From Patiria pectinifera (lineage: Eukaryota; Echinodermata; Asteroidea; Valvatida; Asterinidae), in contig CM057135.1 of NCBI GenBank assembly GCA_029964075.1, positions 6,433,001 to 6,497,000 of the forward strand: DNA of 64,000 nucleotides, in the 5' to 3' direction. A program made the translations under genes and the position numbers. The notes beneath the pieces were generated by a model, which was given only the letters and a program-made list of their open reading frames with translations, did not search any database and was not told where the DNA came from. Positions 24,587-24,912 of this stretch are shown one piece after another. Position 1 is the first letter of the stretch, and every line of letters starts with the position of its first letter.

Positions 24587-24602
24587 AAACATCAAACCAA
24601 AC

Positions 24603-24618
24603 GGCTCTTTTCAGAGCC
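24603..24618 (+). terminator. Histone-type 3' stem-loop, copy 1
   Basis: AAAC-GGCTCTTTTCAGAGCC-ACACC: a 6-bp stem (24603-24608 with 24613-24618) and a UUUC tetraloop. This is the canonical sequence bound by SLBP at the end of replication-dependent histone mRNAs, here 17 bases after the transposase stop codon. The upstream CCAAAC and downstream ACACC flanks also fit. Confidence 0.8.
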
Positions 24619-24638
24619 ACACCAACATCAAACCAAAC

Positions 24639-24654
24639 GGCTCTTTTCAGAGCC
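24639..24654 (+). terminator. Histone-type 3' stem-loop, copy 2
   Basis: A second perfect GGCTCTTTTCAGAGCC, exactly 36 bp after the first, within a duplicated AACATCAAACCAAAC leader and followed by the consensus ACCACA flank. This copy, not the first, is placed correctly relative to the HDE-like element. Confidence 0.85.
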
Positions 24655-24660
24655 ACCACA

Positions 24661-24912
24661 TATTCCGAAAAGAGATTGTGCCAATGTTTCTGAAACAGAA
24701 CGAACATAAAACAGTATTAAAAAATAATAATAATTGCAATAATATATGAAAATGTTTTTCCCTTTTCAGGTACGCTATTCTTCTCCATTGCTGCAGAAGC
24801 CTGCAAAGTCTTCATCGGTTTATTCCAGTCTCTATCCACATAATTCCCAAAAAGAGATTGCATCAGAGTTTCTGAAACGCAATGAAAATAAAACAGTGTT
24901 TAAGAAAAAAAT
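24661..24912. repeat. Duplicated post-stem-loop segment
   Basis: ATTCCGAAAAGAGATTG...TTTCTGAAAC...ATAAAACAGT at about 24662-24720 recurs at about 24843-24905 as ATTCCCAAAAAGAGATTG...TTTCTGAAAC...ATAAAACAGT, 181 bp later. The second copy has no stem-loop in front of it. The intervening 24770-24840 has no recognised content. Confidence 0.7.
24667..24678 (+). promoter_or_regulatory. Histone downstream element (HDE)-like purine box
   Basis: GAAAAGAGATTG begins 12 bases after the second stem-loop, where histone pre-mRNAs carry the purine-rich element that pairs with U7 snRNA. Confidence 0.65.

Follow-up and report, generated by a model that had tools for sequence, protein, structure and literature searches.

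In the genome of the sea star Patiria pectinifera, transposases of several unrelated families are followed by a stem-loop and a purine box of the kind that ends histone messages, and the signal, its place, its spacing, its conservation and its recurrence behind unrelated transposases can all be read directly from the DNA. An mRNA that ends in such a hairpin and is thereby coupled to the cell cycle is regarded as a mark of the replication-dependent histones. In a Mutator-like element (MULE) of the stretch analyzed here, the hairpin pair and the box likely let the histone machinery of the host cut and protect the transposase mRNA, an arrangement that would confine production of the enzyme largely to S phase. 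The broader proposition, to which we give about even chances on what the sequence offers, is that unrelated transposons of one animal have repeatedly taken over the complete 3′ end of histone mRNAs, which would supply transposase in S phase and during rapid cleavage and allow a gain in copies by movement from copied to uncopied DNA, with a PCNA-binding tail reinforcing this link in pogo elements. The window is the whole stretch of 64,000 nucleotides that was analyzed (contig C7, 6433001-6497000, in a genome of 613.5 Mb and 1020 contigs), and the survey of the signal covers the Patiria genome alone.

The first-pass annotation had described two perfect stem-loops 36 bases apart behind a transposase stop codon, and this is what the window holds: the stop codon TAA (24584-24586) is followed by exact copies of GGCTCTTTTCAGAGCC at both sites, in a 36-base unit repeated in tandem in 1.9 copies, and the purine box that was placed 12 bases past the second hairpin is there as well (Table 1; the cut-off of RF00032, the Rfam model of the histone stem-loop, is 34 bits). 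When up to three mismatches are allowed, four such hairpins occur in the window, as compared with a mean of 0.37 in shuffled sequence, and none of 100 shuffles reached four. Across the genome the exact 16-mer occurs 326 times (0 for a reversed-pattern control), and the hairpin followed by A, 9-18 further bases and AAAGAGAT occurs 212 times (control, 0); a chance origin of the hairpins is rejected on the shuffles and on these two counts. The 47-kb relict in the same window repeats the arrangement, with the tandem spacing again exactly 36 bases and a box, CCAAAAAGGGATT, at offset +10 behind its stem-loop.

Table 1. Positions of the MULE, its histone-type 3′ end and related features within the window
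Feature	Position	Strand	Evidence or remark
Histone-type stem-loop and box, probable Penelope-like repeat	12298..12339	-	RF00032, 31.9 bits, under cut-off
Left tandem array, 17-base unit ACGACTCGCACCCGGGG; probable left end region of the MULE	21889..22304	+	tandem-repeat analysis
MULE transposase, first recognized exon; frame open to 23544	23065..23517	+	profile of 114 relatives, E 4.5e-13
Broken second exon of the MULE transposase	23931..24583	+	profile of relatives
First histone-type stem-loop GGCTCTTTTCAGAGCC	24603..24618	+	RF00032, 28.7 bits
Second histone-type stem-loop GGCTCTTTTCAGAGCC	24639..24654	+	RF00032, 39.7 bits, E 3.6e-8
Purine box GAAAAGAGATTG, matching the histone downstream element	24667..24678	+	four-histone-gene matrix, offset +10, shuffle p 0.0003
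Possible poly(A) hexamer (ATTAAA), 61 bases past the second hairpin	24716..24721	+	
Second stretch resembling the box; 78% repeat of 24665-24727	24847..24909	+	
Right tandem array, 16-base unit CGGGTACGAGTTGTCT; probable right end region of the MULE	25083..25224	+	common to L010
C-terminus of a related MULE transposase (relict)	47340..47474	+	profile of 114 MULE proteins, i-E 3.6e-5
Decayed first stem-loop of the 47-kb relict	47648..47663	+	
Stem-loop of the 47-kb relict GGCCCTTGTCAGGGCC, stem altered on both sides (paired)	47684..47699	+	RF00032 match 47679-47724, 31.4 bits, under cut-off

The gene ahead of the hairpins shares its transposase domain with Mutator-like elements (PF10551). The Pfam model by itself gives 14.2 bits on the first exon, under its cut-off of 27.6, and the profile of 114 relatives matches the second exon at E 1.8e-79 (24006-24566) and 3.5e-7 (24335-24583). 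By protein comparison the best named relatives are mainly starfish proteins, among them two of Patiria miniata, P0113 (LOC119727820; 97% identity over 17% of the query) and P0001 (56% over 85%), and relatives of the transposase are present in starfish, hemichordate, mollusc and coral records. An apparent intron, placed by eye at about 23518-23930, sets the gene apart from typical histone genes, which are intronless. The copy is disrupted by an in-frame TAG (24003-24005) and by a frame shift ahead of the final stop, and because the transposase is broken the element has to be regarded as a relict of the carrier of the signal rather than as an active element; another MULE locus, L023, has a frame open across 487 residues and a Pfam match to PF10551 at 1.1e-15 (58.3 bits, cut-off 27.6). 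The ends of the window MULE are formed by tandem arrays in inverted orientation, with inverted similarity of 71% across 63 bases between left and right; a comparison of flanks gave no clear end, and no target-site duplication of the 8-11 bases usual for MULEs was seen by eye around it. In its arrayed ends and in its histone-type 3′ end the element differs from known MULEs, and we know of no account of a MULE with such a 3′ end.

Several other features of the window were recorded alongside. Within the MULE a 355-base unit (22306-23016) is duplicated in tandem at 100% identity, which may reflect a recent event or an effect of assembly, and two DUF3987 frames adjoin the element on the minus strand (26298-27393), one at E 4.2e-11 and the other at 4.4e-5, under cut-off. 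Merlin-like transposase frames on the plus strand (39276-40108; ISXO2-like domain PF12762, E 4.2e-11) have no RF00032 match nearby within the window, a Polinton-like integrase frame (53929-56940) matches rve at cut-off and is followed farther on by DNA-polymerase-like frames recognized by eye, and 14892-19455 is taken up by a large satellite, rich in G, whose main unit measures about 176 bases.

The conservation of the signal in the MULE family was assessed from the transposase side, on copies picked blind to the hairpin from a protein search with window positions 24006-24452, which returned 58 matches. Twenty copies were sampled, with about 700 bases beyond each (ranks 2-21 and 23, leaving out rank 13, which is L023 and was already in hand, and rank 22). 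RF00032 detects a hairpin on the strand of the transcript in 14 of the 20, in seven at or above the cut-off and in seven at 28.5-30.3 bits, and the family has kept it wherever the end of the protein is kept, with one exception: it is found in 14 of the 15 copies that retain the transposase C-terminus and in none of the five that do not (L062, L072, L074, L077 and L078, of which L077 has a hairpin with one mismatch, not called by Rfam). The exception, L073, is 39% identical and has the C-terminus without the hairpin, and L076, at 35%, has the hairpin. The split has a probability of 0.0004 if copies are taken as independent, a figure that can serve as a guide only, because the MULE copies are related. 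The purine box is conserved too, a word search finding it in 13 of the 14 hairpin-bearing copies; in L060 it has been lost along with the second hairpin. Tandem hairpins recur in MULE subfamilies at spacings of 36 (L061, L063, L070), 71 (L067, L069) and 31 bases (L075, L079), and in one subfamily (L017, L023, L065, L068, L076) an extra small hairpin, GGCCCTAACGGGCC, lies between the histone hairpin and the box, displacing the latter to about +29 in L023 and its kin.

The signal shares with the 3′ ends of replication-dependent histone mRNAs a six-pair stem, a four-base loop, CAAAC before and ACCA after the hairpin, a short distance from the stop codon and a purine box at the spacing of the histone genes of the same genome. 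The Rfam scores overlap, the H4 and H2A genes reaching 37.3 and 43.9 bits and the best hairpins of the transposon loci 30.3-41.2. Since the word search for the box missed several sites, it was replaced by a matrix built from the H4, H2A, H2B and H3 boxes of the own genome, and the likeness to the histone HDE proposed at first reading is borne out, in that the box matches this element of all four genes at the same offset. Among 17 transposon and repeat representatives, 16 have their best match to the matrix at +8 to +11 (shuffle p <=0.0063), with family A, a derivative of H1, counted among them, and there is no such match at the chance site L047; the genome sites had been picked by the hairpin and not by the box. 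An Rfam search for U7 gave no match in the genome, with a model that also matched 0 of 14 control genomes, and a U7 motif search gave two matches against one in the control, with no convincing hairpin at either of the two.

Unlike in histone genes, the signal here stands on transposase genes, is often doubled and often has a poly(A) hexamer behind it, and these hexamers make a polyadenylated form of the transposase message possible. All 14 hairpin-bearing MULE copies have one 46-90 bases past the hairpin, and the H3 gene of the same genome shows the same layout of hairpin and then hexamer. This is what would be expected if the 3′ end were a dual one, in which the histone-like signal works, the poly(A) site serves most cells, and the hairpin provides extra output in S phase or in the egg with no restriction of expression to them. 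As a general account we consider this unlikely, the hexamer being absent within 120 bases in seven of the 17 representatives (it is present in ten, as compared with one of four histone genes). The reading that we favor, in which the transposase appears mainly in S phase, leaves room for the hexamer farther down, which may yield a second, polyadenylated form.

The histone-type signal that the first-pass annotation saw on the MULE is real and is not confined to that element. It is also carried by pogo/Tigger elements, by one Tc1/mariner group, by a DDE element of ISAZ013-like type and by unclassified repeats, as well as by a family that is probably Penelope-like, and the earlier reading was too narrow because the signal is common to several unrelated transposon families. 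Fifty loci (L002-L051) were read, namely 30 places from the top of the list together with 20 stretches of contig C7, taken in list order and not at random. Eight are histone genes or tails (H4, H3, H2A and H2B, with H2A assigned by Pfam and the rest by eye), eight are copies of a dispersed repeat that includes the end of histone H1 in shifted frame (family A), 13 have a transposase, five are related pogo ends, and 14 fall into unclassified repeat or ORF families (six in B, five in D and three in C); one fits no class, and one, L047, has an exact hairpin without a box, looks like a chance site and was rejected as a carrier. The 13 transposase loci comprise four MULE (two of them one copy), three pogo type 1, one pogo type 2, two Tc1/mariner and three ISAZ013-like DDE loci. 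Run on representatives, Pfam assigns L006 and L049 to pogo/Tigger (DDE_1, 5.9e-22 and 3.2e-25), places L043 in Tc1/mariner (DDE_3, 6.2e-13), matches L034 to DDE_Tnp_ISAZ013 at 1.9e-5, under cut-off, and gives no match on L037, L033 and L032.

The repeat on the minus strand of the window is probably a Penelope-like element; the genome contains 2679 copies of its hairpin, GGTTCTTTTCAGAACC (0 for the reversed-pattern control), and related stretches (L053-L057) show a GIY-YIG-like motif by eye, with Pfam silent on the one fragment searched. These probable Penelope-like copies continue past the box, and therefore their template RNA would not have been cut at the hairpin. LINE-like reverse-transcriptase frames adjoin histone genes on C7, at L038 (RVT_1) and at L041 (a 1036-residue frame, by eye). 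In viral contigs no MULE relative was confirmed, and the single stem-loop match there, in a contig that its reading frames mark as RNA-phage-like, was set aside as unrelated.

The dispersed repeat of family A (L002, L004, L005, L007, L012, L014, L015, L024 and also L058) carries its H1 piece together with the hairpin, so the capture of histone ends does occur, and tandem H1 genes lie on contig C11; such an H1-carrying repeat is a possible route by which transposons acquired the signal. One could then suppose that the ends of histone genes were captured by accident and that the signal merely travels as a passenger, an explanation that we regard as quite improbable in light of how the hairpins vary. 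An alignment of 20 chosen hairpins, 16 of them distinct (MULE and window copies with one each from pogo 1, pogo 2, Tc1, DDE and Penelope-like loci; decayed hairpins with four or five of six pairs, L077, L082 and L095-L097, were left out), has all 96 of 96 cells paired, as against 6-56% pairing in slid controls, and contains 12 double-change cells, in two pairs; neither figure was reached in 500 shuffles. The count of pairs that changed on both sides is an ordinary one, attained in 276 of the 500. In five of the 14 MULE copies, compared as ten pairs, mean identity is 52% over the coding end, 62% over the 60-base cassette and 26% over the next flank, and nine of the ten pairs show higher identity over the cassette than over the coding end. 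Between unrelated families and histone genes many alignments extend only roughly 50 bases around the hairpin, with the common consensus CAAACCAAAC, hairpin, ACCACAtcTTCAAAAAAGAGATT. A passenger would also have to follow the C-terminus in 14 of 15 MULE copies and recur behind unrelated transposases. For the MULEs in particular the insertion of an unrelated histone gene fragment, which the first reading had kept in view, is rejected because the hairpin tracks the C-terminus of the transposase itself, and it does so in diverged subfamilies with paired changes in the stem. The histone-type signal is apparently under selection in several transposon superfamilies, as judged from these patterns.

In the pogo elements the signal is accompanied by a second feature. 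Like the pogo/Tigger elements with a PCNA-binding motif, they combine a DDE_1 transposase with a C-terminal Qxx[ILM]xxFF, and they differ from those described in also having the histone-type signal. Among 31 loci searched, this PIP motif ends the proteins of L049, L021 and L046, which form two pogo groups with the signal 27-29 bases past the stop; it also occurs in other frames of L050, L048 and L032, and it is absent from the MULE loci L010, L017 and L023. A search with pogo type 1 gave 18 matches, and seven stretches were fetched. The three new copies that reach the C-terminus (L095-L097) all have a decayed hairpin (20.6-29.0 bits, five of six pairs) and an intact box, and in L101, a relative at 29% identity, the tail QRRITDFFQ is followed by a perfect hairpin; L099 and L100 have frames open to the end of the stretch, with their 3′ ends outside it, and L098 adjoins a fragment that does not extend to the C-terminus. 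At 6-178 of L098 there is a piece of 28S rRNA beside sub-threshold matches to the HDV ribozyme, a layout that we take to be reminiscent of an R2-type insertion. The replication coupling of transposons is reviewed in PMC5371812, passages of which describe the binding of PCNA by the Drosophila pogo transposase and the same motif in Tigger. Among the literature matches listed, which leave subscription journals mostly outside, no paper describes histone 3′ ends on transposons as far as the available portions of text go, and within that range the initial statement that no described transposon family carries the signal holds.

Within the Tc1/mariner superfamily the signal is a mark of one group only. 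A search gave 62 matches, and 15 copies whose match reaches at least residue 375 of 385 were fetched, besides L043 and L045. Four of the 15 have the hairpin, three as Rfam calls under cut-off (L082, L089, L090) and one, L088, as a fully paired hairpin that Rfam does not call, and near-adjacent tandem hairpins occur in this group (L088-L090). The hairpin is absent from the other 11, including stop-free relatives at 49-51% identity and two at 81-82%, and these relatives are the nearest stand-in for a surveyed family that lacks the signal.

Long open frames in several copies could suggest that the carriers are not transposons at all and are instead domesticated host genes with S-phase expression, for which host genes derived from pogo offer a precedent. 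It is very improbable that this is so, the copies being dispersed and partly broken, with near-identical pairs (98-99%) and with end arrays common to the MULE copies. A role of the hairpin in DNA, for instance as a site for the transposase or a host factor, would presumably lead to paired changes as well, and is very improbable: all 14 MULE copies have the hairpin in the orientation of the transcript, it stands 16-67 bases past the stop at the loci where the end of a transposase or of a family ORF was read, and a histone box accompanies it at histone spacing.

In the model that we propose for the histone-type 3′ end of these transposases, SLBP would bind the hairpin of the transposase mRNA and U7 would pair with the box AAAAAGAGATT, following which cleavage would fall between the two. 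The resulting message would have no poly(A) tail, would rise in S phase and would be unstable outside it. A copy would be gained by an element that excises from replicated DNA and inserts again within the same S phase, and the PCNA-binding motif in two signal-bearing pogo groups would link the protein, too, to the replication fork.

If this is true, the DNA transposons of eukaryotes would gain a concrete molecular route to replication-coupled transposition, a long-discussed idea for which few mechanisms are at hand. It would also mean that RNA-seq based on poly(A) overlooks active transposase mRNAs in such genomes. The signal makes a direct test possible, namely of the dependence of transposase mRNA on S phase in sea-star embryos.
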